From Bacillota bacterium (GTDB lineage Bacteria; Bacillota; Clostridia; Peptostreptococcales; Anaerovoracaceae), in assembly GCA_017436705.1 (NCBI GenBank), contig JAFSCP010000027.1, positions 1 through 64,000 of the forward strand: 64,000 nt of DNA. Direction: 5' to 3'. How positions within the stretch are numbered: position 1 is the stretch's first letter; the number at the start of each line of letters is the position of its first letter. Both the position numbers and the translations under genes were made by a program. The notes beneath the pieces were generated by a model, which saw only the letters and a program-made list of their open reading frames with translations, was not told the DNA's origin and searched no databases. Of the stretch, positions 39,948 through 63,819 are shown in pieces.

Positions 39948-39978
39948 GTGCCTATAACCTGAATACAGGAGGATGGAT

Positions 39979-41463
39979 ATGATGTACGAATACAAATATG
40001 ATTTACTTGAAGGTCTGGAGCCGGCGGAGTTTTTTTACTGGTTCGGTGAAATCACTGCGATTCCAAGGGAAAGCGGCAACGAAGCAGGAATGATTGAGTT
40101 TCTGAAGGGCTTTGCCAAGGAGCGCGGCTTTAAGTGCGATGTGGATGAGGCTGGCAATGTATTTATGAATGTGCCGGCAACAGAGGGGTATGAAGAGCAG
40201 CCTGCAGTGCTTTTTCAGGCCCACATGGATGTGGTCGCTGCGGTCGATGATGGTGTGGAATTCAATTACGATACAGATCCGATTCAGATGCGCCGCCAAG
40301 GTGATGAAATTTATGCCTGTGGTACAACTCTTGGCGCTGACAACGGTGTGGGCATCGCAACCATGCTGGCACTGGCAGACGGAAGATTCGGGCAGCCGAT
40401 TCCTCATCCGCCGCTGGAACTGCTTTTTACTGTAGAAGAAGAAATCGGCCTTATCGGCAGCCGCAAATTTGACTGTTCTAAGATTAAGGCCCGCAGAATG
40501 ATAAATATGGACTGCGGCGACAGCCACCTGCTCTGTACAAGTACAGCGGGCAAAATCGCAGGTAAAATTGAAAAGACATACGAAATGAAACCTGTTGCGC
40601 CAGGAAGCAATCTTCTTAAAATAAAGCTTTTTGGCGGTCTTGGCGGACATTCCGGCATGATGATAAACAAAAATCGTGCCTGTGCAATAAACACCATGGG
40701 TGAGCTGATTGTGAGCATTTTTGAGGAAGGCCTGCAGGCACAGCTTTGCTCCATGACAAGTGTGGGTAAGTCCATCTGCAAAGAAGCAAATGCTGTAATT
40801 GCAGTATCTGAAGGCAGCGGTGAGGCAGTAAAAGCAGCGCTGGATAAGCGTTTTGATATGATTAAAAAGATCTTTGCTGCATATGATCCTGACCTGGCAA
40901 TGTCCGTGGAAGAAGTGACTGCAGAGCAGGGCATGAGTGCAGCCACACCGGAAGATACGGAAAAAATGGGCAGGATTATGAGCCTTATCCGCACCGGCCA
41001 GCACAGAAACGATACCGTGAATTTTGCTACAGTAATTTCATCGGGAGCAATCCATGAGGCCTGGTTTAATGAAAACGGAGAATTTTTCCTTGACTATTCC
41101 ACACGTTCATCCAGCGACCCTGACCAGGAACTGATGTTTGAAAAATATGTGTTTATGGCGAAGATGCTTGGAATGGAACTGAAAGAATACGACCGCTATT
41201 CCGGATGGCCTGAACGACAGGATTCCACTTTTATCCCTAAATTCGCCAGAGCATATAAGGAGCTTTTCGGCAAGGATATGTGCGTGCAGAAGACCCATGG
41301 CTGCGTGGAAGCAGGGGTTATTGTCGGCAGGATTCCTGACATGGATGCAGCAGGATACGCACCGACGGCAACAGGTGCACACACTACCAGGGAGCATCTG
41401 TTTATCAATGAAGTTGCTCCGTACTGGGCAGTGATGAAGAAAGTAATGGCCGCAAAAGAATAA
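39979..41463 (+). CDS. pepD: Aminoacyl-histidine dipeptidase PepD-like (M20), copy 1
   Basis: Cytosolic metallo-dipeptidase of the M20C group with broad dipeptide specificity (often called carnosinase or Xaa-His dipeptidase). About 494 residues. Metal ligands lie in QAHMDVV near 79, TLGADNGVGIA near 116, TVEEEIGLIG near 149 and DCGDSH near 176; the lid domain is in the middle. Three ATGs (39973, 39979, 39982) follow AGGAGG; 39979 has the best spacing, and alignment with the other two copies allows 39979 or 39982. It is clearly more diverged from copies 2 and 3 (58929, 62279) than they are from each other. Transcribed alone from its own promoter to its own terminator. Confidence 0.94.
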   Translation: MMYEYKYDLLEGLEPAEFFYWFGEITAIPRESGNEAGMIEFLKGFAKERGFKCDVDEAGNVFMNVPATEGYEEQPAVLFQAHMDVVAAVDDGVEFNYDTDPIQMRRQGDEIYACGTTLGADNGVGIATMLALADGRFGQPIPHPPLELLFTVEEEIGLIGSRKFDCSKIKARRMINMDCGDSHLLCTSTAGKIAGKIEKTYEMKPVAPGSNLLKIKLFGGLGGHSGMMINKNRACAINTMGELIVSIFEEGLQAQLCSMTSVGKSICKEANAVIAVSEGSGEAVKAALDKRFDMIKKIFAAYDPDLAMSVEEVTAEQGMSAATPEDTEKMGRIMSLIRTGQHRNDTVNFATVISSGAIHEAWFNENGEFFLDYSTRSSSDPDQELMFEKYVFMAKMLGMELKEYDRYSGWPERQDSTFIPKFARAYKELFGKDMCVQKTHGCVEAGVIVGRIPDMDAAGYAPTATGAHTTREHLFINEVAPYWAVMKKVMAAKE

Positions 41464-46000: not shown

Positions 46001-47080
46001 TTAGAATTCGTAATCATCAAAACCGAAACCAGGTTTTTCAGAAAGAGTGATTTTATCACCATCAACTGTGAAGCCGCCGGTAACTCCGCCTTCACCTTCA
46101 ACAAAAGACATGAAAGAGTCAAGGTCTACAACAGGTTCCATATTGTCGTAGCAGGCGGCAACCACTGCAGCACCTGCTGCCAGACCCAGCTTGGTTTCAG
46201 ACATACAGCCAACTATACAGGTCTTACCGTTTGCTTTGGCAATTTCATTAATCTGAAGAGCAGGCCATATACCGCCGCATTTCATCAGCTTGATGTTTAT
46301 TGCTTCGCCGGAGTCTTTTTCGCAGGCCCAGCGTGCGTGAACAGGGGAGTGTACGCCTTCGTCAATGAGAAGGGGAACAGGGGAAAGTTTCTTGAGTTCG
46401 GCCATTCCGTCAAGGTCCCAGGAAACGAGCGGCTGTTCAGCTTCAGAAATACCAAGTTCAGGGAACTTTTTAAGGACTTCTGCAGCTGTTTCAATGTCAT
46501 ATCCCTGATTTGCATCGACACGGATATCAATATCAGGGCCTACAGCCTGACGGATTGCGGCAAGATGTTCAAGGTCTTCTTCAGGGTTGATACCGGCTTT
46601 GATTTTAAGACAATGGAAACCCTGAGATACTCTTTCCAGCGCGTCCTCAACCATTTTCTCTGTGGTATCGATACCGATGGTCATATCAGTTGTGAGAACT
46701 GTCTGTGTGGCTCCGAGAAGGCGGTGGACAGGAAGGCCCTTTGCCTTGCCCATAATATCGTAGCAGGCAATGTCGATTGCGGCCTTTGCGGAGGTGTTTC
46801 CTGCAAGCTTGCTGTCCATGATTTTATGAATGGTTTCAGGGTCTTCAGGGTCAGCGCCGATGAGAGCAGGCTTCATAAATTCAACAGCAGCGATTACACC
46901 ATCTATGGTTTCTCCTGTAACGAAAGCAGCAGGACTGGCTTCGCCCATACCATAAATACCTTCGTCTGTGACTATTTTTACATAAACACCTTCAGAATAC
47001 ATGCTTTCAGAAAAAGCGATTCTGAATACTTTACGGCGTTTGAATTTAGTTTTTTTTGTAATGATGTCGGTGATTTTCAT
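46001..47080 (-). CDS. Dipeptide epimerase (L-Ala-D/L-Glu type)
   Basis: Enolase-superfamily enzyme that inverts the second residue of a dipeptide, in relatives L-Ala-D-Glu to L-Ala-L-Glu during murein recycling. In 359 residues all functional positions are seen: catalytic KIK (Lys 159 and 161), metal ligands Asp 189 (VDANQGY), Glu 215 (AEQP), Asp 240 (IDEG), second base Lys 264 (NIKLMKCGG), and the dipeptide-binding DLD (319-321). The segment CMSETKLGLAA closely parallels B. subtilis YkfB. ATG 47080 follows GGAGG. It is monocistronic, leftward, inside the accessory patch. Confidence 0.9.
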   Translation of the reverse strand: MKITDIITKKTKFKRRKVFRIAFSESMYSEGVYVKIVTDEGIYGMGEASPAAFVTGETIDGVIAAVEFMKPALIGADPEDPETIHKIMDSKLAGNTSAKAAIDIACYDIMGKAKGLPVHRLLGATQTVLTTDMTIGIDTTEKMVEDALERVSQGFHCLKIKAGINPEEDLEHLAAIRQAVGPDIDIRVDANQGYDIETAAEVLKKFPELGISEAEQPLVSWDLDGMAELKKLSPVPLLIDEGVHSPVHARWACEKDSGEAINIKLMKCGGIWPALQINEIAKANGKTCIVGCMSETKLGLAAGAAVVAACYDNMEPVVDLDSFMSFVEGEGGVTGGFTVDGDKITLSEKPGFGFDDYEF

Positions 47081-50442: not shown

Positions 50443-51948
50443 ATGAAAAAGAATTGGTTACGTACACTTTCTTTAGTTCTTTGCTTAGCACTTTGCTTTG
50501 GCCTTATCGGCTGCGGCGGTCCTGGTGAGGCAGAAGAAGGAAATCCAGAACAGATCGTTATTGCTACAGACGTAGACCTTAAGGCTCTCGACCCAATGGG
50601 TAACTGGTCCGGTGCATGCTACTACATTTACTGGACTTGCTATGACAGATTATTAGGATACGACTATGAAACTGGTGAATTCTTACCAGAACTGGCTACT
50701 TCCTGGGAAGTTTCCGAAGATGGTATGGAATACATCTTCCATTTAAGAGATGACGTTAAGTGGCATGATGGAACTCAGTTCACAGCTAAGGACGTTGTTT
50801 ACACAGTTAAGAGAGGTATCGAAACTCAGTGCGGTAACTATCCAAGTGTAAGCCATGCAGAAGCAATTGACGATTTCACAGTTAAGTATATCATGAACGA
50901 ACCTAACTCCTTAGTACTCGACAAGCAGTGGATCGGCGACGCAGCTATCATCCAGGACGGCTGCGGCGATGACGTTGCGACTAACATCATGGGTACAGGT
51001 GCTTATAAGGTTAAAGAATGGCACATCGGTGAACACCTCATCATCGAAGCTAACCCTGATTACTGGGGCGAACAGCCAGCAATAAAGGAAATCAAATATG
51101 TTACAATGCCTGAAGCTAATGCTAGATTAATGGCTGTACAGGCTGGCGACGTTCACGTTGCTTCCATCCCTGCGGCAAACATCAAAGCTGCTCAGGAAGA
51201 CGAAAACCTTACAATTTACACTAACCAGTCCACATCCTTAAACTACTTAGGTATGAACCACTCTAACGAATACTTATCCAACAAACTGGTTAGACAGGCT
51301 ATCTACCACGCAATCAACAAGCAGGACATCATTGATGCTGCTCTTGAAGGCTATGCAGTTCAGGCTGACGTATTAGTTCCACCTTCAATTCAGGGTCACG
51401 CCAAGGATATCAAGGGTTACGAATACGATGTAGAAAAGGCTAAAGCATTACTTGCTGAAGCAGGTTATGCAGATGGTTTCGACCTTGAGCTTACTTACAG
51501 AACTGGTATGTACGACGTTCAGGCTCAGATCATCCAGGCTCAGTTAAAGGAAATCGGTATCAATGTAACTCTCGACGGCAGAGAATCTGCTGCTGCATCT
51601 GAAAAGATCAATGCAGGTCAGTCTCAGCTCAACTTAGGTTACAGAGGTTCTTCCAATGCAGACTACTACCTCAGCATTATGCATTCAGACAGAATGACTG
51701 ACGGACGTAACATCCTCAACCTCAGCAACGAAGGTATTGATGCTGCTCTCGACAAGGCTAAGACTACAATCGATACAGATGCTCGTACTCAGGAATACAT
51801 CAAGTGCCAGCAGATTGCACACGATGAAGTTGTAGTAGTTCCTCTTTACAGCGGTACTGTATTCAACATTTCACCTAAGAACTTAGCAGGCGTACAGCTT
51901 CTTCCTACATCCGGTTCTGATCACAGACAGATTCACTGGGTTGAATAA
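50443..51948 (+). CDS. Oligopeptide/dipeptide ABC transporter substrate-binding lipoprotein
   Basis: Extracellular SBP family 5 protein, 501 residues. The signal peptide ends in the lipobox LIGC with lipidated Cys 24. The mature part has family markers: LLGYDYETGEFLPELATSWEVSEDGMEYIFHLRDDVKWHDGT (read in parts), NPDYWGEQP and KLVRQAIYHAINKQDI. It captures peptides for the permease encoded next. Codon use is strongly biased, as expected for an abundant binding protein. Ribosome binding site AGGAGG. First gene behind the sigma-54 promoter. Confidence 0.95.
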   Translation: MKKNWLRTLSLVLCLALCFGLIGCGGPGEAEEGNPEQIVIATDVDLKALDPMGNWSGACYYIYWTCYDRLLGYDYETGEFLPELATSWEVSEDGMEYIFHLRDDVKWHDGTQFTAKDVVYTVKRGIETQCGNYPSVSHAEAIDDFTVKYIMNEPNSLVLDKQWIGDAAIIQDGCGDDVATNIMGTGAYKVKEWHIGEHLIIEANPDYWGEQPAIKEIKYVTMPEANARLMAVQAGDVHVASIPAANIKAAQEDENLTIYTNQSTSLNYLGMNHSNEYLSNKLVRQAIYHAINKQDIIDAALEGYAVQADVLVPPSIQGHAKDIKGYEYDVEKAKALLAEAGYADGFDLELTYRTGMYDVQAQIIQAQLKEIGINVTLDGRESAAASEKINAGQSQLNLGYRGSSNADYYLSIMHSDRMTDGRNILNLSNEGIDAALDKAKTTIDTDARTQEYIKCQQIAHDEVVVVPLYSGTVFNISPKNLAGVQLLPTSGSDHRQIHWVE

Positions 51949-51993
51949 TTTAAACCTGTACTAAAAATTAACACGATTTAATTTTAAAAATGA

Positions 51994-52021
51994 TGCCAGA
52001 TGAGGGAAACCTCATCTGGCA
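51994..52021 (+). promoter_or_regulatory. Intercistronic hairpin after the binding-protein gene
   Basis: TGCCAGATGAGG (51994-52005) pairs perfectly with CCTCATCTGGCA (52010-52021) around a GAAA tetraloop. No T run follows. Such hairpins protect the binding-protein mRNA so that it exceeds the permease mRNA. Confidence 0.8.
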
Positions 52022-52044
52022 ATCTTACGAAAGGAGTAGTAAAA

Positions 52045-52977
52045 ATGCTTAAATATATAATCAAGCGATTGTTACTTCTCATTCCGGTAATTCTCGGTGT
52101 AACCGCAATTGTATTCTTCATCATGTCACTGGCTCCGGGTGATCCGGCTCTCTCAATTCTGGGTCCTGACGCTGAACCTGAGGCTGTAGAGCATCTCAGA
52201 GAAGAACTCGGTCTTAACGACCCTGTTATCGTGCAGTATGCTAATTACATGTGGGATTTCATCCATGGTGACCTCGGTACATCATATAATTCGGGAAGAC
52301 CGGTTTTAGAAGAATACCTGTACTTCTTCCCTGCGACATTCAAGCTGGCCTTCTGGTCCATGTTCGTTGCAGTTATTATTTCGATTCCAATCGGTATTAT
52401 CTCTGCTGTTAAGCAGTATTCATTAATCGACAATATTGGTATGGTGGGCGCTCTTGCAGGCCTTTCCATTCCTAACTTCTGGCTCGGACTTATGCTTATC
52501 ATGGTATTCTCACTTAATCTGGGCATCCTGCCATCAGGCGGTGCCACAGCACCGGGTGCAGTAATACTTCCTGCTATTACAATCGGGACAGGACTCACTG
52601 CTACTATTACAAGAATGATGCGTTCATCCATGCTTGAAACAATCCGTCAGGACTATATCCGTACAGCCAGAGCTAAAGGTGTAAACAGTAAGAAGGTTAT
52701 TACAGGCCATGCCCTGAGAAACGCACTTATCCCTGTAGTTACAGTTATCTGTATGGACTTCGGTTACTGCCTTGCAGGTGCATCCACTACAGAAATCGTA
52801 TTCTCCTGGCCGGGCATCGGCAGACTTACCGTTAATGCAATCAACTCTCAGGACAGACCGCTTGCCATCGGCTGCCTGATTATGACTGCTATTGCAATCT
52901 GCGTATCCAACATGGTAATGGATATTCTGTACGCAATCATTGACCCTAGAATCAAACTGACAGGGGGGAGCAAGTAA
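52045..52977 (+). CDS. Oligopeptide ABC transporter permease (DppB/OppB type)
   Basis: 310-residue inner permease subunit with six membrane helices. The start MLKYIIKRLLLLIPVILGVT is typical; the EAA loop that contacts the ATPases reads IRTARAKGVNSKKVITGHALRNALIP in parts near 205-230. ATG 52045 follows AAGGAG; the longer frame from 52000 would translate the hairpin. Overlaps the next permease gene by one base. Confidence 0.95.
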   Translation: MLKYIIKRLLLLIPVILGVTAIVFFIMSLAPGDPALSILGPDAEPEAVEHLREELGLNDPVIVQYANYMWDFIHGDLGTSYNSGRPVLEEYLYFFPATFKLAFWSMFVAVIISIPIGIISAVKQYSLIDNIGMVGALAGLSIPNFWLGLMLIMVFSLNLGILPSGGATAPGAVILPAITIGTGLTATITRMMRSSMLETIRQDYIRTARAKGVNSKKVITGHALRNALIPVVTVICMDFGYCLAGASTTEIVFSWPGIGRLTVNAINSQDRPLAIGCLIMTAIAICVSNMVMDILYAIIDPRIKLTGGSK

Positions 52978-53876
52978 TGAGTAAGAAAAAGAAAAATCAG
53001 GCCCAGTCAACAGGCCGTAAAAATATATCCAAGGGACAGGATATCAGAAGACGTTTCATGCGTAACAGAAACTCTGTAATCGGCCTTGTCCTTACAGCAA
53101 TCTTCGTTTTCGTAGCGCTTGCGGCACCAATCCTTGTTGACTACGATACGCAGGTAATCCAGCAGAGCATTCCTGACAGACTGCTTCAGCCCGGCGAAAA
53201 TCCTGAACATCCTCTCGGTACAGACGAAATCGGCCGTGACGTAATGGCCAGACTTATTTACGCAGCTAAGATGTCACTGTCAATCGGTGCCATGTCCGTA
53301 GTAATAGCCATAGCCATCGGTGTTTTCATCGGTTCCGTTGCAGGGTACTTCGGCGGCAAGGTTGATACAGTTCTCATGCGTTTAATGGAAGTTCTCGACG
53401 GCGTACCGTCCTTCCTTATGGCCCTTACAATCTGTGCAGCTCTCGGTGCCAGCGTTTATACGCTGATGATTGCCATCGCTGTAGGTTCCATTGCAGCACA
53501 GTCCCGTATGGTACGAAGCGCAGTATTAACTGTTAAAAACAACGAATATGTAGAAGCTGCCAAGGCAATGGGCGCAACCGATATGCAGATTATCTTCTAC
53601 CACATCATTCCTAACTGTGTAGGTACTATCATCGTACAGTTCTCAGTTAAGATTGCAGGCGGTATTCTTTCCGCATCATCACTCAGCTTCCTGGGTCTGG
53701 GCGTACAGCCGCCTGATCCTGAATGGGGTGCAATGCTTTCCGGCGGACGTACATACATGCTGGACAACCCAACATTAACATTATTCCCTGGATTATGTAT
53801 TATGATCGTAATCCTGGCATTAAATATGCTGGGCGATGGTCTCCGTGACTCACTCGACCCAAGACTTAAAGGATAG
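52977..53876 (+). CDS. Oligopeptide ABC transporter permease (DppC/OppC type)
   Basis: 299-residue second permease. A basic cytoplasmic N-tail (RRRFMRNRNSVIGLVL) precedes the first helix; HPLGTDEIGRDVMARLIYAAKMSL near 80 and the EAA loop VEAAKAMGATDMQIIFYHIIPN near 190 are the family signatures. It pairs with the preceding permease. The ATG overlaps the upstream TAA. Confidence 0.95.
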   Translation: MSKKKKNQAQSTGRKNISKGQDIRRRFMRNRNSVIGLVLTAIFVFVALAAPILVDYDTQVIQQSIPDRLLQPGENPEHPLGTDEIGRDVMARLIYAAKMSLSIGAMSVVIAIAIGVFIGSVAGYFGGKVDTVLMRLMEVLDGVPSFLMALTICAALGASVYTLMIAIAVGSIAAQSRMVRSAVLTVKNNEYVEAAKAMGATDMQIIFYHIIPNCVGTIIVQFSVKIAGGILSASSLSFLGLGVQPPDPEWGAMLSGGRTYMLDNPTLTLFPGLCIMIVILALNMLGDGLRDSLDPRLKG

Positions 53877-53887
53877 GAGGGGAGAAT

Positions 53888-54880
53888 ATGGATAAACATT
53901 ATGACGACGAAGTTTTACGCGTAGAGGATCTGACCGTTTACTACGAAACTGATGAAGGTACTGCCAAGGCAGTAAACAATCTTGACCTGGTTGTCCGTAA
54001 GGGTAAAACTGTAGGTCTTGTAGGTGAAACAGGCTCCGGTAAGACAACAACAGCACTTTCAATTCTCCGCCTTGTACCTGACCCACCTGGGGTTATCAAA
54101 AGCGGTAAAGTAATCCTGGACGGCATGGACATTTACTCCCTCACAGAAGGTGAAATGGACATGGTAAGAGGCTATCACGCTTCTATGATTTTCCAGGACC
54201 CTATGACAGCGCTTAACCCTGTAATGACAGTTGGCGACCAGATTGCAGAAACATTAAGAATCCATGAAGGTTTAGATAAGAAGGCTTCCTGGGAAAAGGC
54301 AGAAGAAATGCTGAAGGTAGTAGGTATTCCTCCTGAAAGAGCCAAGGAATTCCCTCACCAGTTCTCCGGTGGTATGAAGCAGCGTGTAGTTATTGCGATT
54401 GCACTTGCCTGCAGCCCTAAGCTGATGATTGCAGACGAACCAACAACAGCGCTGGACGTAACAATTCAGGCACAGGTTCTCCGCGAAATGAAGGAACTCA
54501 GAGACAAGTACGAAATGTCAATGATTATGATTACCCATGACCTGGGAATCATTGCTCAGATGTGCGACGAAGTTGCAGTAATCTATGCGGGCAGAATCAT
54601 TGAATTCGGTGAACTCAGAGAAATCTTCAAGGATACCAAGCATCCGTATACACAGGGACTTTTCGATTCACTGCCAAAGATCAACGACGGCAGAGACATG
54701 CTTCAGCCAATTCCTGGACTTATGCCGGACCCTATGGAACTTCCTGAAGGCTGTGCATTCGCACCACGCTGCAAGTATGCGACAGAAAAATGTAATCAGG
54801 GAATTCCGCCTAAGCACTATTTCAGTGATTCACACTATGTTGCTTGCTGGCGTTATGATGAACCTGAATTCAAGTTATAG
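53888..54880 (+). CDS. Oligopeptide ABC transporter ATPase (DppD/OppD type)
   Basis: 330-residue ATPase. Walker A GETGSGKTTT near 45-54, signature FSGGMKQRV near 158, Walker B LMIADEPTTALD near 180 and the H-loop ITHDLGI are intact. The C-terminal oligopeptide extension with CAFAPRCKYATEKC (a cysteine motif that can hold an iron-sulfur cluster in this family) is present. Ribosome binding site AGGAGGGGAG. Forms a heterodimer with the next gene product. Confidence 0.95.
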   Translation: MDKHYDDEVLRVEDLTVYYETDEGTAKAVNNLDLVVRKGKTVGLVGETGSGKTTTALSILRLVPDPPGVIKSGKVILDGMDIYSLTEGEMDMVRGYHASMIFQDPMTALNPVMTVGDQIAETLRIHEGLDKKASWEKAEEMLKVVGIPPERAKEFPHQFSGGMKQRVVIAIALACSPKLMIADEPTTALDVTIQAQVLREMKELRDKYEMSMIMITHDLGIIAQMCDEVAVIYAGRIIEFGELREIFKDTKHPYTQGLFDSLPKINDGRDMLQPIPGLMPDPMELPEGCAFAPRCKYATEKCNQGIPPKHYFSDSHYVACWRYDEPEFKL

Positions 54881-54891
54881 GAGGTGGCGAT

Positions 54892-55839
54892 ATGAGTGAA
54901 CATTTACTTGAAGTCAACCATCTTAAAAAATATTTCAAAACAGGAAAGGGAACAGTACAGGCTGTAGACGATGTTTCTTTCACACTGGACGCAGGTAAAA
55001 CACTTGGTCTTGTAGGGGAATCCGGCTGCGGTAAATCCACAACAGGAAGAACTGTACTGAGACTTCTGGAACCAACTGACGGACAGGTAATTTTCGAAGG
55101 CAAGGATATCGCCAAACTCAGTGCCAGAGAAATGCGCCACATGCGTAAAGATATGCAGATGATCTTCCAGGATCCGTTCTCATCCCTTAATCCTCGTAAA
55201 ACAGTAGAAGAACTTATTGCGGAACCGTTAAAATGGTTCAAAGTACATAAAACAAAAGCAGAAACAAAGGCACACGTAGCCAAGCTCATGGAAACTGTAG
55301 GTCTGGCACCTCGTCTTGCAAACGTATACCCACACGAACTTGACGGCGGCCGTCGTCAGAGAATCGGTATCGCAAGAGCTCTTGCCCTTGACCCTAAGCT
55401 TATTGTGTGCGACGAACCTGTATCAGCCCTGGACGTATCAATTCAGGCACAGGTTCTGAACCTGCTTAAAGAACTGCAGAGAGAGTACAACATTGCGTAT
55501 ATCTTCATTACCCATGACCTTTCTGTAGTAAACCACTTCTCCGATGATATCGCGGTAATGTATCTGGGACAGATTGTAGAAAAAGCACCTGCAAAGGAAC
55601 TTTTCACCAACCCTGTACATCCTTATACAAAGGCGCTCCTGTCAGCGATTCCAATTCCTGACCCTGATGCCCAGGTGGAACAGATTCCGCTCAAAGGGGA
55701 AATTTCATCACCTATCAATATGGCAAGAGACTGCCACTTCGCAGCCCGCTGCCCATATGCGACAGAAGCTTGCCATGCAAGCACACCAGAACTTGTGAAC
55801 AGAGGAAACGAACATTTCGTAGCCTGTCACCTGTTTTAA
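54892..55839 (+). CDS. Oligopeptide ABC transporter ATPase (DppF/OppF type)
   Basis: 315-residue ATPase. Walker A GESGCGKSTTG near 43, Walker B LIVCDEPVSALD near 168, H-loop ITHDLSVV, and C-terminal CHFAARCPYATEAC. The ABC signature reads ELDGGRRQR near 149-157 where the canonical form is LSGGQRQR: the serine is aspartate. I believe this variant is common in clostridial OppF proteins, but cannot check. Ribosome binding site AGGAGGTG. Completes the transporter. Confidence 0.94.
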   Translation: MSEHLLEVNHLKKYFKTGKGTVQAVDDVSFTLDAGKTLGLVGESGCGKSTTGRTVLRLLEPTDGQVIFEGKDIAKLSAREMRHMRKDMQMIFQDPFSSLNPRKTVEELIAEPLKWFKVHKTKAETKAHVAKLMETVGLAPRLANVYPHELDGGRRQRIGIARALALDPKLIVCDEPVSALDVSIQAQVLNLLKELQREYNIAYIFITHDLSVVNHFSDDIAVMYLGQIVEKAPAKELFTNPVHPYTKALLSAIPIPDPDAQVEQIPLKGEISSPINMARDCHFAARCPYATEACHASTPELVNRGNEHFVACHLF

Positions 55840-55916: not shown

Positions 55917-57452
55917 ATGGACATCAGACAAGAAGCGCTGCTTGCAGCAGCTTATGACTATTATAATCATAACGAATACATTCAGTATGACCAGCTGAGC
56001 ATGGACCGTTTTTTACAAATAACACCACGGCGGAGAAAGTATTTTCCTCCGGAAGCGGGCACCTCACAGCATACCCACCATCTGGACTGTTCCGGTTTCT
56101 GTTTCGCGGTGTATTACCAGGCGTTGGGCCTGGAACTGCCTTATGATATCACCTGGCACATGTATGAAAATATGGCGCCGCTGGTCTATAAGTACGAAAA
56201 AACCTTCGATGAAACCCTGGAGGAAAAGCAGAAGATTGCCGATGAATTCACGGCAGCCTTGCAGCCGGGGGATCTGATTACCTTACTGCACCAGGGCAAG
56301 TCCGGACATATTGTGCTCTATGTGGGAGACGGCAAGTTTATGCACTGCTGCCCGGTCACACTTGGTAAAGATGATAGTTACAACTATACAGCAAAATCCG
56401 AATCGAAGTGCAGAAATAATATTTTGCTGAACAATATTGCTGATATCACCCGTATCATTACCGGTGAGGATGCAGGAATGCTCGGTGGATATTGCCGCTA
56501 TAACCTGTTTTCTCCGAGGGAGCGGATGATTGCCATCCATCGTCCATGGTTACAGGCCGATGGACCGACAGAGCAGGCCATGATTCGCATGGGTGCTCAT
56601 AAGGGGCTTGTCTCCTGTCTGGAATCCTCCCATCCGGGCGGCCGGCAGGCGGTTTGCGGTGACGTGGTGGAATACCGTGTACATGTAAAAAATGCAGGCG
56701 GTACGGCAAAATCCGTTACTGTGGACTTCACCGCTCCGGCAGGAACTTCCTTTGGCGGTGAGACAGTCTGTGAAGCAAAGCTTGAGGCAGGAGAAGAAAG
56801 AAATTTCACATTCGGCGTCATCGTGGAAGCGGAAGATGAAATCTATCTGGAAGCGCCGCAGGTGCATGTCAATGGCCTCACCATCCCGGGACGAAAAGTG
56901 CTTCTGGCACCGGCTGTCAATCCGGAAGACAAGGAAAAAGTTGTAAATGAAATAAGAGAAAAACTGGCAGAAGGCATGGAAGTGATGAAAGCTGCCGCGG
57001 AAGTTTACGGCCGACATGGTATCACCATGAGCGGAGAAAAGAAGACTTACATACGCGGTCTCTTCCACCATTTTGATACCTGCGCCAGAGAAAATAATAA
57101 TATACTGGTGCGAAAAAGCCAAAACCCATTTGAAGATATGGCCGTATACAGCCTCTTCGGCGGCAAAGGCGTAGTGACCGGAGATATTGTAAACAATCCG
57201 GATCAGCGCACCACAGAAATTATGCAGAGGGATCTGCAGGCAGGGGATATCATTCTCTGCGGCAATGATCCGTATGCAGTACAGACCCATGCACTCTTTT
57301 ATACAGGAGACAGCCTGATTGGGGCTGCAGAGCAGGGGCTGACCAATCGTGAGCTGAAAGACGACGAATTGGAAGCGTTTATGAGAAGTCTGTTCGGCAG
57401 ATTCTGCTTCGTGGTTCTTCGTCCATGGCAGATGCGATGTATGAAGTCATGA
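55917..57452 (+). CDS. Double NlpC/P60 cysteine peptidase, cytoplasmic
   Basis: 511 residues without a signal peptide. Residues ~20-215 form an NlpC/P60 domain with catalytic Cys 58 (HLDCSGFCF) and His near 130 (SGHIVLYVGDGKF). A beta-rich CARDB-like segment follows (about 230-340; VEYRVHVKNAGGTAKSVTV). Residues ~370-500 look like a second NlpC/P60 domain (LQAGDIILC, THALFYTGD) whose cysteine position is methionine (FEDMAVYSLFGG), so probably inactive. NlpC/P60 enzymes cleave the gamma-D-Glu to diamino-acid bond; a cytoplasmic one after a peptide transporter resembles B. subtilis YkfC in role. Ribosome binding site GAAGGAAG. Confidence 0.82.
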   Translation: MDIRQEALLAAAYDYYNHNEYIQYDQLSMDRFLQITPRRRKYFPPEAGTSQHTHHLDCSGFCFAVYYQALGLELPYDITWHMYENMAPLVYKYEKTFDETLEEKQKIADEFTAALQPGDLITLLHQGKSGHIVLYVGDGKFMHCCPVTLGKDDSYNYTAKSESKCRNNILLNNIADITRIITGEDAGMLGGYCRYNLFSPRERMIAIHRPWLQADGPTEQAMIRMGAHKGLVSCLESSHPGGRQAVCGDVVEYRVHVKNAGGTAKSVTVDFTAPAGTSFGGETVCEAKLEAGEERNFTFGVIVEAEDEIYLEAPQVHVNGLTIPGRKVLLAPAVNPEDKEKVVNEIREKLAEGMEVMKAAAEVYGRHGITMSGEKKTYIRGLFHHFDTCARENNNILVRKSQNPFEDMAVYSLFGGKGVVTGDIVNNPDQRTTEIMQRDLQAGDIILCGNDPYAVQTHALFYTGDSLIGAAEQGLTNRELKDDELEAFMRSLFGRFCFVVLRPWQMRCMKS

Positions 57453-57493: not shown

Positions 57494-58912
57494 ATGGACA
57501 AGGAATTATTACAGAAGATAGACTTATGTATTGATGCATGTCGTAGTGAACTTGCAAAAACCACCATTGAACTTGTAAATATCAGGAGTGTACAGGGTGA
57601 ACCTCTTCCGGGTGCACCTTTTGGCAAAGGTCCGCGCAGAATGCTTGACAAAACCCTTGAAATGGGCCGTGATGCCGGATTTTATCCTGTTGATTATAAC
57701 GTGGGCGTGGTAAGTATTGCACTTAAAGATTCTGCCCCTGATGTCGGAATCTGGATTCACGGGGATGTGGTTCCGGAAGGAATAGGATGGAACTTCGAAC
57801 CATACAATGCAGTGGAATACAAAGGCTGCATTATCGGACGAGGTGCTACCGACAACAAAGGCCAGATGGCTGCAATTTACCACCTGCTCAGAATTTTCAA
57901 AGAACTTGACATCGAACTGAAATACAATCCGGCACTCTATGTCGGCAGCAACGAAGAAACCGGCATGAGAGATCTTAACGGTGTTCCCGGAAACGAAGAT
58001 GCCAGAGGATTTTTAAATGTATGCGAGGCACCGAAGCTGAGCCTTGTACCTGACAGCAGTTTTCCTGTGGGATACGGCGGCAAAGGTTCAGTAAAAGCTC
58101 TGCTCCGCAGCAGGACTCCTCTTGAAGGATTTGTCCTGACAGCAGGGCAGGACGAAGCTCCGGCCCGTGCAACTGCAGTATTTCCGCCGCAGGAAAATTT
58201 CCCGCAGGAATTACCGGGCGCTGTGATTACAAAAGATTCCGAAGGAAATATTACCGTGACTTGTGATACAGCACAGGTTCACGGAAACAGCAGCAAATCA
58301 GGCGGCAACGCAGTTGTAAAAATGTGTGAAGCACTGAAGAGCATCGGAACACTGAGCGAAAATGACCTTAAGATTATTGAGGCATTTAAACTTATAGCAG
58401 AAGATACTACTGGTGCATGCCTGAACGTTGCAGGTGCAGAAGATAATATTATGGGACCGATGTCCACACTGACAAGACGCATTGACTGGAAAGACGGTTA
58501 TCCTGAAATCCAGACTATCGTATATTATCCGACAGGTATCGAATACGACTGGATTGTTGAAAACATGACAGCTGCAGCAGCTGATCTGGGGCTGGAGGTA
58601 ACAGGCATTCCTTATACCAAGAAACCTTATCTTCTTGACCCTGAAAGTGAAACAGCAGAAATGCTGCACCGCGTTGCAAACGAAGTTACCGGTGAAGATA
58701 AACCGATGTATATTGTAAAGGGCGGAACTTATGCTCACTTCCTTCCGAACGCTTATGCTTTCGGCATGGACGGAAGCCTGCCTCCTGAAGATTTCGCGGA
58801 GGGAAGGGGCGGCGCCCACGGTGTGGATGAAGCAGTATCTCTGGACAGACTCCAGAGAGCAATGAGAATTTATGCCCGCGTTCTGCTTGAATTAAATGAA
58901 ATGTGTATATAA
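57494..58912 (+). CDS. M20 metallopeptidase, PepV-type dipeptidase
   Basis: 472-residue zinc dipeptidase of the PepV/Sapep group. Metal-binding and catalytic motifs: IHGDVVPEG near 90, GATDNKGQMAA near 118, SNEETGMRD near 152, plus HGNSSKSGGNAV in the lid region near 262 and HGVDEAV near 445. It would split unblocked dipeptides after import. ATG 57494 is chosen over the in-frame TTG 57488 because AAGGAGG is at 57481-57487. Sixteen bases separate it from the next pepD. Confidence 0.92.
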   Translation: MDKELLQKIDLCIDACRSELAKTTIELVNIRSVQGEPLPGAPFGKGPRRMLDKTLEMGRDAGFYPVDYNVGVVSIALKDSAPDVGIWIHGDVVPEGIGWNFEPYNAVEYKGCIIGRGATDNKGQMAAIYHLLRIFKELDIELKYNPALYVGSNEETGMRDLNGVPGNEDARGFLNVCEAPKLSLVPDSSFPVGYGGKGSVKALLRSRTPLEGFVLTAGQDEAPARATAVFPPQENFPQELPGAVITKDSEGNITVTCDTAQVHGNSSKSGGNAVVKMCEALKSIGTLSENDLKIIEAFKLIAEDTTGACLNVAGAEDNIMGPMSTLTRRIDWKDGYPEIQTIVYYPTGIEYDWIVENMTAAAADLGLEVTGIPYTKKPYLLDPESETAEMLHRVANEVTGEDKPMYIVKGGTYAHFLPNAYAFGMDGSLPPEDFAEGRGGAHGVDEAVSLDRLQRAMRIYARVLLELNEMCI

Positions 58913-58928
58913 GAAGGAGATTGTAGAG

Positions 58929-60416
58929 ATGAAATACAATCATAAGTACGAAGCAACTAAAGGATTGCAGCCAGAACCATTCTTTTACTGGTTCGGTGAA
59001 GTGTCTGCATGTCCTCGTCCGTCAGGCAATGAAAAAGCTCTGATTGACTATATTAAAAATTACTGTGAAGAAAGAAATTTACCTTGTGATATTGATGAAG
59101 CGGGCAATGTTTTCGTTAAAGTACCGGGAACTGCAGGGTACGAAGATTATCCGGCTTTCCTCATTCAGGGACACATGGACATCGTGCCTGTGAAGGATGA
59201 AGGTGTGGATTTCGACTTCGACAAAGACCCATACAACCTTCAGATTGATGGGGATAAGATTTACGCTCCGGGAACTACTCTGGGGGCAGACAACGGCGTT
59301 GGTATTGCAACCATGCTGGCCTTTGCAGATACTCTGGCAGAGGAACCTATTCCTCATCCTCCACTTGAACTTTTATTCACTGTTGAAGAAGAAACAGGCA
59401 TGAAGGGAATCAAACGTTTCGACTGCTCCAAGATTACTGCCCGCAGAATGCTCAACTGTGACAGTGGCGACCCTCACAGAGTTGCTGTATGCTGCGGCGG
59501 AAACAGCAAATCCAAAATTGAAAAAGAATTTGAAACTGAGCCTGTTGGCGAAGGCTGGACTGTTCTTGAAATCAGCCTGACAGGAGGCCAGGGCGGCCAC
59601 AGCGGCGGCATGATAAACAAAGGCCGTGCATGTGCAGCCAACAATATGGGCGAACTTCTCACTGCACTCATGGCTGATGAAAAGGTTTCTGAATTCAGAA
59701 TCTGCAGTTTAAAGACCAGTACACCATCTATTATCAAAACCTGTGATGCAATAATTGCAGTTCCAACAGCAGATGCAAAGGCAGCAGAGGGCTGCATGAA
59801 TGAAAGATTTGCTTTAATCAAGGGAATATATAAGAACAGCGACCCTGACCTGGCTCTCGCAATTACTGAGGCTGGCTGCGGTGCAGATAGCACAGCGATT
59901 TCTTCAGAAGATTCTGAAAAAGTTGCACAGTGCCTGTTGTACCTTGAAACTGCAATGTACCGCTCACATTATGAGTTTACACAGTCACCTGTGACTGGCG
60001 GTTCTATTTATTTGGCAGAACTTACAGCAGATGGCCAGTTCAGTGTGGATTTCTCAGTGCGCTCTTCAATCAATGAAGACCTGAGACTTAAATTTAAAAA
60101 ATATGTGCTGCAAATGAAGATGCTGGGTCTTGACCTTGTGGAATACGACTCCTGGCTGGGATGGGTGGAAGAACCTGCTTCTCCGCTGCGTGATGCTTTA
60201 CTTGCTGCTCATAATGAGTTATTCGGATACGACATGGCGATCGGCAGAGGTATCGGCGGAATTGAAGTAGGTGCCATTAAAACTGCAATTCCTGAAATGG
60301 ACGCAGTAGCTTTCGCACCATTCTCAAAAGGCGCACATACAACAAGCGAATATCTGTCAGTAAGCCAGGTACAGCCATTCTGGGATCTGCTGAAAAAGCT
60401 TGTTTTAATAAAATAG
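58929..60416 (+). CDS. pepD: Aminoacyl-histidine dipeptidase PepD-like (M20), copy 2
   Basis: 495-residue M20C dipeptidase with the same motifs as copy 1: QGHMDIVPV near 80, TLGADNGVGIA near 117, TVEEETGMKG near 150, DSGDPH near 178. It starts MKYNHKYEATKGL; ATG 58929 follows AAGGAGA, and the upstream in-frame ATG 58896 lies inside the previous gene. It is closely related to copy 3 (62279) along its whole length and into the 3' flank, so the two arose by a fairly recent duplication, perhaps to broaden dipeptide range. Confidence 0.94.
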   Translation: MKYNHKYEATKGLQPEPFFYWFGEVSACPRPSGNEKALIDYIKNYCEERNLPCDIDEAGNVFVKVPGTAGYEDYPAFLIQGHMDIVPVKDEGVDFDFDKDPYNLQIDGDKIYAPGTTLGADNGVGIATMLAFADTLAEEPIPHPPLELLFTVEEETGMKGIKRFDCSKITARRMLNCDSGDPHRVAVCCGGNSKSKIEKEFETEPVGEGWTVLEISLTGGQGGHSGGMINKGRACAANNMGELLTALMADEKVSEFRICSLKTSTPSIIKTCDAIIAVPTADAKAAEGCMNERFALIKGIYKNSDPDLALAITEAGCGADSTAISSEDSEKVAQCLLYLETAMYRSHYEFTQSPVTGGSIYLAELTADGQFSVDFSVRSSINEDLRLKFKKYVLQMKMLGLDLVEYDSWLGWVEEPASPLRDALLAAHNELFGYDMAIGRGIGGIEVGAIKTAIPEMDAVAFAPFSKGAHTTSEYLSVSQVQPFWDLLKKLVLIK

Positions 60417-60493: not shown

Positions 60494-60549
60494 AATTATT
60501 TAAACGCAAATCCCTCCTAATAACTGGCGCAGGCGCAAGTCTGCGCCTT
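60494..60549 (+). repeat. Repeat downstream of pepD copy 2, with hairpin
   Basis: Near-identical to 63763-63819 downstream of pepD copy 3 (shared TAAACGCAAAT, CTAATAACTGG and GCAAGTCTGCGCC). It contains the hairpin GGCGCAG (60526-60532) with CTGCGCC (60541-60547), lacking the T run that copy 3's hairpin has. The 154-base gap 60417-60570 otherwise shows only AT-rich sequence. Confidence 0.8.
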
Positions 60550-60569: not shown

Positions 60570-62255
60570 ATGAATAAGACATTATCAATTGTATTTACAG
60601 GTGATATCGGTTTCGACCGCTATATGGCAGGAAAATGGACTGATGAAGAACTGCTTTCTCAGGAAATTCTTGAATTTTTCCACAGTGCAGATCATGTGGT
60701 TCCGAATGTTGAAGGGGCAATTGTAGATGAAAGCGAGTTTTCTTCATCTGCGGAATTCTGTCATTACATGACGCCGGAAGTTACTGACTTCCTGCAGAAA
60801 ATTCACGCTGATATCTGGTGTATAGGAAATAACCACATTATGGACGCAGGAATTGAAGGACTGAACAGCACGCGCAGAATCGCAGCAAGCCTTGGATGTC
60901 AGACAATCGGTGCCGGTGTTGATCAGGAAGATGCCAGCCAGCCTGTGTACTTTGATGAAGCAGGGGGCGTTGGTATTTTCAGCGTAAACTATATTTCTGA
61001 AGCACGCGAACTGAAAGGTGAGCCTTTTAACTGCTGCCGCTGGGACAATCTTGAGCTGATCAGCAAGCGTATTGCAGAGATAAAAGCAAAGTGCAGATGG
61101 TGCGTAGTGGTGGTTCACGGCGGTGAAGAATTCGCAACTATGCCTAGCCCATACACACGCGAACTTTATATAAAATATCTTGAAGCTGGTGCAGATGCAG
61201 TAGTAGGCCATCATCCGCATGTACCTGAAAATTACGAAACATTTGAAGGTGGTAAGGTGATATTCTACTCCCTTGGTAACTTCATCTTCGATACTGATTA
61301 TCAGCGTGCCCATCCATATACAGAGAAAGGCGCTCTGCTGAAACTCAGCTTCACTGAAGAAAAGATGGACTTCGAAGCATTGGGCTACGAAATTGTCCGC
61401 GGAAGCGAAAGACTTGTAAAAAGTGATCTTCCGTGCATTTTCACAGACATTCCGGCAGAAGAGTATGAACTGCTCATTCCGCTTGGCGCGAAAGTTTTCC
61501 TGGAAGAAGAGCGCAGAAGGATGATTTATCTGGAACCTGAAAATTACAAAGATCTGGACGAAGCTGGCTGGCTTGAATACTTCAACGGCAAGCCTGAAGG
61601 TTACTACAAAGGCCAGCACATGGACCTTAGCCTGATTGTTCCTCTGGCTGAGAAGGCAAAAGAAGGTCAGTGGAGAGCAAGTAAGCTGGAACAGGTAAAA
61701 GCATATATGGTGGAAGAGCTGGGTATGGAATACTTTGTACCTACTGCTCAGGGACTGGTGGATTACTGCAGAAGAATGATGACCACACCGCACCTGTATG
61801 TATGGGCCGCAGAAGGAGAATATGTCACAACCGAAATCATAAACTACTTCGCGGAAAAGTATCCTTCAGGATATACACCGGAGAAAAAAGCAATCCGTCT
61901 GGCACTTGCCAACAGAGGCATCCGCGGCTGGGACTGTTTCGGACTGATTAAGTCATATATTTTCAACGATTACCATCAGAACAATACGGACTGGTACATC
62001 AAGTCATTCGACAGAACTACAACGCAGCTTTTCGAATGGGCAGAGGAAAAGGGCACTATCGATACGATTCCTGAGATTCCTGGGCTGTGTGTATGGAAGC
62101 CGGGTCATGTGGGTGTCTATACAGGCAACGGAATGGCCATTGAATCGACATGCAAATGGCATGTGCTTGACACAACAATAGGCGGTATTCAGGAACTGCC
62201 TCTGGAAGCCGGTGAATGGACTCACTGGCTCAAGTGCCCGTACATAAAATATTAA
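60570..62255 (+). CDS. CapA-type hydrolase fused to an NlpC/P60 domain
   Basis: 561 residues. The N-terminal half (1-300) is a CapA/PgsA metallophosphatase-like domain: FTGDIGFDRYM near 10, PNVEGAIVDE near 50, IGNNHIMDAG near 91, VVVHGGEEF near 184, GHHPHVPENYE near 212 and YSLGNFIFD near 233. CapA proteins are linked to poly-gamma-glutamate. The C-terminal part (about 390-560) is NlpC/P60-like: GWDCFGLIKSYIF with cysteine near 455 and KPGHVGVYTGNG with histidine near 513. No signal peptide. The fusion joins a gamma-glutamyl polymer module with a gamma-glutamyl peptidase module. Ribosome binding site AAAGGAG. Confidence 0.85.
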   Translation: MNKTLSIVFTGDIGFDRYMAGKWTDEELLSQEILEFFHSADHVVPNVEGAIVDESEFSSSAEFCHYMTPEVTDFLQKIHADIWCIGNNHIMDAGIEGLNSTRRIAASLGCQTIGAGVDQEDASQPVYFDEAGGVGIFSVNYISEARELKGEPFNCCRWDNLELISKRIAEIKAKCRWCVVVVHGGEEFATMPSPYTRELYIKYLEAGADAVVGHHPHVPENYETFEGGKVIFYSLGNFIFDTDYQRAHPYTEKGALLKLSFTEEKMDFEALGYEIVRGSERLVKSDLPCIFTDIPAEEYELLIPLGAKVFLEEERRRMIYLEPENYKDLDEAGWLEYFNGKPEGYYKGQHMDLSLIVPLAEKAKEGQWRASKLEQVKAYMVEELGMEYFVPTAQGLVDYCRRMMTTPHLYVWAAEGEYVTTEIINYFAEKYPSGYTPEKKAIRLALANRGIRGWDCFGLIKSYIFNDYHQNNTDWYIKSFDRTTTQLFEWAEEKGTIDTIPEIPGLCVWKPGHVGVYTGNGMAIESTCKWHVLDTTIGGIQELPLEAGEWTHWLKCPYIKY

Positions 62256-62278
62256 TTAATGGGAAGGAGAATGCAGAT

Positions 62279-63790
62279 ATGAAATATGTTCATAAGTACG
62301 AAGCGACAAAAGGACTGGAGCCTGAGCCGTTCTTTTACTGGTTCGGCGAAGTGTCTGCATGTCCTCGTCCATCAGGCAACGAAAAAGCGCTGATTGAATA
62401 CATCAAGGCTTTTGCAGAAACGCGCAGCCTGGAATATGATGTGGACGAAGCAGGTAATGTGTTCGTCAAAGTTCCGGGAACTGCAGGATACGAAGATTAT
62501 CCGCCTTTCCTAATTCAGGCTCACATGGACATGGTGGCTGTAAAGGATGAAGGTGTGGATTTTGACTTTGACACTAAGCCAATCAACCTTCAGATTGACG
62601 GAGATAAGCTTTATGCGCCGGGTACTACTCTCGGTGCTGACAACGGTGTTGGTATTGCTGCAATGCTGGCACTGGGTGATACTCTGACAGAAGAACCGAT
62701 TCCGCATCCGCCTCTTGAACTTTTATTTACAGTGGATGAAGAAAGCGGTATGAAGGGAATCAAGCGCTTCGACTGCTCGAAGATCACTGCCCGGAGAATG
62801 CTCAACTGTGACGGCGGCGCTCCTCATAGAGTGACAGTCTGTTGCGGCGGCAGCATCCAGTCAAAGATTGAAAAAGAATTTGAAATTTTTGCTGTTGAAG
62901 AAGATTGGACTGTGCTGAATGTAAGCCTGACAGGAGGTCAGGGAGGACACAGTGCTGTTATGCTCAACAGGGGCCGTGCATGTGCTGCAAACAATATGGG
63001 CGAGCTTCTTACAGCACTTATGGCTGACGATATTGAGTTCAGAATCAGCAGCCTCAAGACAAGCAAGCCTGCAATCATTAAGGGCTGTGATGCTGTAATT
63101 GCAGTACCTGCAGTTTCTGCAGAGACGGCGGTTTTATCCATGAATGAGCGCTTCGCACTGATTAAGGGTGTTTACAAAAACAGTGACCCTGACCTGGAAC
63201 TTTCAATTAGCGAAGCAGGATGCACAGCTGAATGTACAGCCATTTCTGCGGCAGATTCTGAAAAGGTTGTACAGTGCCTCTTATATCTGGAAACTGCTAT
63301 GTACCGTTCACATTATGAGTTCACACAGTTTCAGGTTTCGGGCGGATCAATCGGAGAAGTAAGTCTTACACATGGAAAGTTCAATGCAGACTTCGTTGTG
63401 CTTTCTTCCATAAACGAAGATCTGAGACTTAAATTTAAAAAATACGAGCTTAAGATGAAAATGCTGGGATTCGACCTGACAGAATACGATTCATGGTCAG
63501 GCTGGGCAGAAGACACTGTTTCTCCTCTCCGTGATGCATTACTGGAGGCTCACAAGGAACTGTTCGGATACGAAATGATAATTGGCAGAGGCATCGGTGG
63601 CATCGAAGTTGGTGAAATCAAGACTGCTATTCCTGAAATGGATGCTGTAGCATTCGCACCATTCTCTCAGGATGCCCACACAACAGGAGAATGCCTGTCT
63701 GTAAGTCAGGTGCAGCCTTTCTGGGATCTGCTGAAGAAACTTATTATAATAAATTTTCTGAGAAATAATATAAACGCAAATACCATCTAA
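62279..63790 (+). CDS. pepD: Aminoacyl-histidine dipeptidase PepD-like (M20), copy 3
   Basis: 503-residue M20C dipeptidase, closest to copy 2. Motifs QAHMDMVAV, TLGADNGVGIA, TVDEESGMKG (Asp in place of the first Glu of EEE) and DGGAPH (where copies 1 and 2 have DCGDSH/DSGDPH, an Asp-to-Ala change near the metal site). ATG 62279 follows AAGGAGA. After KKLIIIN it continues 11 residues beyond the end of copy 2, into what is intergenic repeat there. Terminator follows directly. Confidence 0.92.
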   Translation: MKYVHKYEATKGLEPEPFFYWFGEVSACPRPSGNEKALIEYIKAFAETRSLEYDVDEAGNVFVKVPGTAGYEDYPPFLIQAHMDMVAVKDEGVDFDFDTKPINLQIDGDKLYAPGTTLGADNGVGIAAMLALGDTLTEEPIPHPPLELLFTVDEESGMKGIKRFDCSKITARRMLNCDGGAPHRVTVCCGGSIQSKIEKEFEIFAVEEDWTVLNVSLTGGQGGHSAVMLNRGRACAANNMGELLTALMADDIEFRISSLKTSKPAIIKGCDAVIAVPAVSAETAVLSMNERFALIKGVYKNSDPDLELSISEAGCTAECTAISAADSEKVVQCLLYLETAMYRSHYEFTQFQVSGGSIGEVSLTHGKFNADFVVLSSINEDLRLKFKKYELKMKMLGFDLTEYDSWSGWAEDTVSPLRDALLEAHKELFGYEMIIGRGIGGIEVGEIKTAIPEMDAVAFAPFSQDAHTTGECLSVSQVQPFWDLLKKLIIINFLRNNINANTI

Positions 63791-63819
63791 TAACTGGTGC
63801 AGACGCAAGTCTGCGCCTT
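63763..63819 (+). repeat. Repeat downstream of / overlapping pepD copy 3
   Basis: Counterpart of 60494-60549. Here its first part is read as the last codons of pepD copy 3, including its stop codon. Confidence 0.8.

Follow-up and report, generated by a model that had tools for sequence, protein, structure and literature searches.

A rare fusion of CapA-like and NlpC/P60 domains in a plausible peptide-scavenging operon of a Clostridia bacterium

Little is understood of what most CapA (PGA_cap) proteins do, and the locus described here raises the question of what such a domain does when it is joined to an NlpC/P60 peptidase domain among genes for peptide uptake and dipeptide cleavage. We have analyzed a stretch of 64,000 nucleotides (contig JAFSCP010000027.1, from a gut-type bacterium of the Anaerovoracaceae), called the window below. 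A first-pass annotation of this DNA had described a cytoplasmic CapA-NlpC/P60 fusion in a peptidase operon, with both catalytic sets intact, and had suggested that it acts on a gamma-glutamyl polymer or peptide. Our analysis indicates that the fusion is a real, rare architecture made of known families, and that the protein probably helps the bacterium to use cell-wall peptides.

The fused gene (Table 1) starts with ATG, is preceded by a Shine-Dalgarno-like AAAGGAG and has no internal stops, and it links, within one reading frame, a CapA/PGA_cap domain and a divergent NlpC/P60 domain. Neither a signal peptide nor a hydrophobic N-terminus or membrane anchor was seen in its sequence, and the protein is apparently cytoplasmic, as had been proposed.

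Table 1. Features of the fused gene and its surroundings in the window.
Feature	Position	Strand	Details
Fused CapA-NlpC/P60 gene	60570..62255	+	single intact ORF, 561 aa
CapA (PGA_cap) half	60570..61721	+	residues 1-384; D12, E48, N88, H89, D92, H183, H214, H217 invariant
NlpC/P60 half	61722..62252	+	residues about 385-561 (C-terminal 177 residues)
NlpC/P60 half, key codons	Cys456 61935-61937; His513 62106-62108; Glu525 62142-62144	+	
Opp/Dpp-type peptide ABC transporter	50443..55839	+	binding protein and 2 permeases (all three named from sequence), 2 ATPases (profile matches)
NlpC/P60 protein	55917..57452	+	511 aa, signal peptide not seen; PF00877 E 1.4e-13, residues 53-144
M20 dipeptidase, Sapep/PepV-like	57494..58912	+	TIGR01887 206.4 bits (cut-off 207.95)
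M20 dipeptidase, PepD-like, first copy	58896..60416	+	TIGR01893 317.1 bits (cut-off 343.75)
M20 dipeptidase, PepD-like, second copy	62276..63790	+	TIGR01893 308.3 bits (cut-off 343.75)
Enolase-superfamily dipeptide epimerase	46001..47080	-	3jva E 2.6e-69; B. subtilis 1jpm E 4.7e-60

The peptidase operon of the first-pass annotation is evident from the gene order. On one strand, the Opp genes are followed by the gene of an NlpC/P60 protein, a PepV/Sapep-like M20 dipeptidase, a PepD-like one, the fused gene and a second PepD-like M20 gene. The two PepD-like genes on either side of the fused gene are closely similar, an arrangement that a tandem duplication could leave behind, and a third PepD-like gene is found at 39973-41463. 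Near-identical G+C-rich stem-loops, which may be terminators or attenuators, lie at 60526-60547 and 63796-63817, the latter followed by a run of T. Since one precedes the fused gene and its near copy follows the last gene, the fused gene and the second PepD gene may be a separate unit. The 511-aa protein combines its N-terminal NlpC domain with a weak DUF11/CARDB-like middle, and its C-terminal part may be a degenerate second NlpC copy. About 13 kb upstream of the fused gene, on the opposite strand, is the gene of a canonical dipeptide epimerase, an enzyme that might either cooperate or compete with the CapA half. The remainder of the window consists for the most part of housekeeping genes.

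Searches of 350 genomes from the same family and 394 from the order showed the C-terminal domain alone or in other contexts, and the fusion was seen in the window and in one related MAG (L047, the same sequence as L067). Its contig stops 38 residues into the NlpC half, but the junction and the gene order are the same, so an assembly accident is unlikely and we rejected this explanation. A scan of 84,980 species provided 125 relatives, and among the best 80 of these 125 loci this MAG was again the only fused one. The scan was seeded with the CapA motifs of this subfamily only (alignment A2, used because A1 had no sufficiently conserved stretch), and it could miss fusions with other CapA types. 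We found no description of a CapA-NlpC fusion in the literature, a weak absence given that the queried terms seldom occur in text. The architecture appears uncommon, and the first-pass annotation likewise knew of no description of it in this setting.

Versions of the two domains in separate genes were found as well. The genome of the window codes for another CapA with an NlpC gene 22 bases upstream (L003), and for a standalone CapA (L002) with 62% identity whose C-terminus coincides with the end of the fused CapA half, so that the fused gene appears to be two genes linked end to end. In another locus (L068) a single gene run contains an AAT-type hydrolase, NlpC, an M81 peptidase and CapA as separate genes. 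The combination of an AAT-type N-terminal hydrolase with a standalone NlpC/P60 recurs in L005, L043 and L068, with an M81 (MlrC-like) peptidase added in the last two, and is possibly another peptide-degrading module.

The first-pass annotation had made its reading depend on the NlpC/P60 fold of the C-terminal half. This half scores 13.7 bits against the PF00877 cut-off of 23, although membership of the fold family does not hinge on passing this cut-off, and a relative of it (L009, 36% identical, E 2.9e-22) passes the same profile with 30.4 bits. The two halves were modelled separately because a joint alignment of both domains (A5) misaligned the NlpC rows. The AlphaFold2 model of the NlpC/P60 half, made with 29 sequences, reached a pLDDT of 87, and its best matches were NlpC/P60 enzymes (VIA Z 13.0 for LytE and 12.8 for YkfC), with weaker values in Foldseek (best E 2.9e-3). 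At the level of the predicted structure, the papain-like NlpC/P60 fold is confirmed. Cys456, His513 and Glu525 are invariant in the 29 sequences, which provides the Cys-His dyad. The third triad position, twelve residues after the His, is Glu throughout this subfamily and His in YkfC, a difference that may count against the reading favored below. By sequence, the C-terminal half is related to NlpC/P60 enzymes of phage type and to secreted ones, for example with 44-46% identity in L060 and L173. One relative, L044:1480-2349, has a lipoprotein-like N-terminus, and the next gene downstream codes for a peptide-binding protein.

The CapA half is matched by PGA_cap (PF09587) at residues 7-241 of the protein, with E 5.3e-47 and 160.9 bits versus a Pfam cut-off of 27. 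Its model (pLDDT 89.7) was closest to MslH (E 1.3e-19), followed by purple acid phosphatase (5.9e-8) and 5'-nucleotidase. MslH epimerizes, in a Ca-dependent reaction, the C-terminal Trp of a lasso peptide (PMC10406935). The CapA half retains seven of the eight key residues of MslH. Among the Ca ligands Glu44, Asn87, His259 and His261, the first three correspond to E48, N88 and H183, while His261 is replaced by Gly185, a difference that, judged from the alignment, counts against an epimerase. The His/Asp dyads of MslH (His88/Asp91 and His295/Asp11) are present as H89/D92 and H217/D12, invariant in 22 relatives, with D12 equated to Asp11 by motif. Apart from the one Ca ligand, the key residues of both halves are intact, in line with the first-pass annotation. 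The fused protein scored 60.5 bits against the MslH equivalog model NF038314, with its cut-off of 700. MslH was the sole PGA_cap protein returned by PDB searches, and since it is the only solved structure of the family, nearness to it says little about the reaction of CapA. We take the usual two-metal motif of the fold to be altered here in the same way as in MslH, with Asp-Ile-Gly in place of Asp-x-His and Glu48 instead of the bridging Asp.

Given this conservation, it is quite unlikely that the CapA half does no more than bind murein peptides, or act as a scaffold, and hand them to the NlpC/P60 half. Enzymes of the YkfC type do form their substrate pocket with an additional SH3b domain, whose Tyr118 makes the S2 site (PMC2954226), but the catalytic-type residues of CapA are invariant in 22 sequences that are mostly standalone proteins.

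Of the substrates suggested by the first-pass annotation, the gamma-glutamyl peptide is likely for the NlpC/P60 half, and the polymer has been dropped. Some NlpC/P60-type enzymes, such as PgdS, hydrolyze poly-gamma-glutamate, and the name of the CapA family also points to this polymer. Nevertheless, no synthase for it was recognised by eye among the ORFs of the window, the protein has neither membrane anchor nor export signal, the operon consists of a peptide importer and dipeptidases, and MslH, the one solved relative, is a peptide epimerase. With nothing linking the locus to the polymer, a role in its metabolism is very improbable.

The distribution of CapA relatives points to peptides as well. 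Among the best 80 of the 125 loci, a standalone CapA gene immediately follows an M20 dipeptidase gene in 21, and lies near an M19-type dipeptidase gene, named from sequence, in three (L071, L092 and L097). Upstream of the dipeptidase-CapA pair there is a membrane protein family with no NCBIfam name (L079:626-1810, relatives in 14 loci) that could be a transporter. In the CapA tree, group I is the clade that holds the window and group II is its sister group, about 50-54% identical. Group I CapA occurs in two to three tandem copies in L071, L092 and L094, and also in a MAG named Fretibacterium (Synergistota; L093), either by transfer or through a misplaced contig.

Neighbors that are mostly peptidases would also fit a CapA half that is a hydrolase (a metal-dependent amidase, isopeptidase or phosphoesterase) working in sequence with the NlpC/P60 half in the catabolism of murein or other peptides. 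The calcineurin-like fold is mostly hydrolytic, as the phosphatase and nucleotidase matches next after MslH illustrate, and the window already encodes a canonical epimerase. Still, a hydrolase sits poorly with the altered metal motif and leaves unexplained the group II pattern described below; we regard it as possible but rather unlikely.

In seven of the best 80 of the 125 loci (L113, L117, L118, L122, L125, L131 and L142) a MurD gene was found upstream of group II CapA, directly adjacent in all except L142, where one ORF lies between. In L125 the MurD gene is split by a stop codon. The neighboring MurD passes the MurD cut-off in L118 and L122, each scanned alone, and a search of the seven genomes (G535-G541) found MurD over the cut-off in all of them, the CapA-adjacent copy being the only one in five. 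Glutamate racemase MurI over its cut-off was found in none of the seven. The marker residues of MurD2 (Glu197 and Arg358 in Xanthomonas oryzae) gave a mixed picture: the Arg is present in all seven CapA-linked MurDs, the Glu in two, and hence both markers of L-Glu use together in two; the D-Glu-using MurD of S. mutans also has the Arg.

We extended the search to 50 further CapA genomes, where the presence or absence of MurI follows the CapA tree. In group I, MurI was present in 20 genomes and absent in 11, two of them borderline (131-134 bits); the genome of the window has MurI. In group II it was absent in 39 of 39 genomes, 28 of them from the seven murD-linked and the further CapA genomes and 11 more from two family surveys. 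The genomes are mostly MAGs, and incompleteness could explain single absences, hardly all. Lack of MurI is not the rule in these families, since 126/150 and 105/150 of the surveyed genomes have it. Group II CapA was carried by 6 of 24 and 8 of 45 MurI-less genomes in the two surveys and by none of the MurI-positive ones. Each survey has a single MurI-positive CapA carrier; one (L171) is placed beside group I, the other (L261, 83% identical to L071) within it. The association of group II with MurI absence has one-sided p values of 9e-6 and 4e-5, which are indications only because kinship was ignored and the group split had been seen before computing; without the split, CapA against MurI absence gave 6e-5 and 3e-4.

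The carriers are related Clostridia, and genomes with and without MurI cluster on the CapA tree (9 changes versus 18 in shuffles), so shared ancestry could lie behind the link, with D-Glu coming from a DapF-type racemase, a transaminase or an Asp/Glu racemase. DapF of Chlamydia makes D-Glu (PMC5885031), and a D-amino-acid transaminase, over its cut-off in no genome, had matches of 182-233 bits in five. The pattern recurs, however, in two bacterial families, the MurI-positive exceptions fall at group I and the adjacency to murD is a separate support. Descent alone is for us a serious possibility that falls somewhat short of probable. The literature offered no paper tying CapA to D-Glu, and on MurI-less organisms only off-topic ones; both are weak absences.

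The reading that we favor, tentatively and with confidence somewhat below even, is that the fused protein breaks down murein peptides in the cytoplasm as a bifunctional enzyme whose CapA half is an MslH-type epimerase. From the gene order, the Opp transporter would import stem peptides. The NlpC/P60 half, by its family and fold, would cleave these after gamma-D-Glu, in front of the diamino acid, leaving L-Ala-gamma-D-Glu. The CapA half, judging from its fold, its residues and the distribution of its relatives, would be a metal-dependent peptide epimerase that inverts the C-terminal glutamate to give L-Ala-L-Glu. From this the M20 dipeptidases of the operon would then release L-Ala and L-Glu, an activity known for the family. 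The operon content and the closest folds (LytE and YkfC on one side, MslH on the other) speak for this proposal, as do the linked separate genes (L068, L003), the position of CapA after M20 genes, the murD adjacency and the consistent lack of MurI in group II. On the other side, a second dipeptide epimerase would be redundant next to the one encoded at 46001-47080; this gene and the MurI of the same genome weaken the epimerase case for the fused protein, and group I, the window included, has no link to MurI absence.

Links of the CapA subfamily to murD, to M20 dipeptidases and to MurI absence point to glutamate stereochemistry rather than polymer hydrolysis. By analogy, group II would make D-Glu at the peptide level, like MurL, and group I would use the reaction for catabolism. 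We consider it possible, but doubtful on balance, that a CapA subfamily found in gut Clostridia acts as peptide-level glutamate epimerase and supplies D-Glu for peptidoglycan without MurI, in some cases with a neighboring MurD, and has a catabolic, NlpC/P60-fused cousin in the window. The source of D-glutamate is not evident in most of the MurI-less Clostridia examined. If the epimerase reading is true, gut bacteria would have a further peptidoglycan route beside racemase or transaminase and MurD2/MurL, and the joining of a CapA domain to a murein peptidase would be explained. Should the fusion alone hold up, what is left is an uncommon architecture in a plausible peptide-scavenging operon. 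Of most interest is the CapA subfamily; its function can now be probed by complementation.

Several known systems resemble parts of this locus. PgsA/CapA of poly-gamma-glutamate synthesis shares the family, and neither its synthase genes (by eye, in the window) nor its membrane anchor accompany the fused gene. Phage endolysins and secreted wall hydrolases (L009, L060, L173-L252) are sequence relatives of the NlpC/P60 half but are found in phage-borne or wall-hydrolase contexts, whereas the fused protein is joined to CapA, has no export signal and belongs to a peptide-uptake operon. Among solved structures, MslH (PMC10406935) comes nearest to the CapA half; it differs at His261, and no lasso peptide genes accompany the fused gene. 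In Bacillus subtilis, YkfC and YkfB, encoded beside the dpp transporter (PMC2954226), likewise combine peptide transport, an NlpC/P60 endopeptidase and a glutamate epimerase acting on murein peptides, the epimerase being only predicted in our case. YkfC and YkfB are separate genes, the latter coding for an enolase-fold protein. Where the fused protein has CapA and Cys-His-Glu, YkfC carries SH3b domains and a Cys-His-His triad; with CapA as the other domain and no match to SH3b, we did not file the fused protein as a YkfC. By analogy it would be a fused counterpart of YkfC plus YkfB in which a CapA fold replaces the enolase-fold epimerase. Finally, there is MurD2 with MurL in Xanthomonas (PMC8788868). 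MurL lacks any known domain and requires ATP, while CapA is a calcineurin-like protein, and the CapA of the window is in group I, in a genome with MurI. The arrangement is nevertheless similar, with MurL adjoining MurD2 as group II CapA lies at murD in MurI-less genomes.
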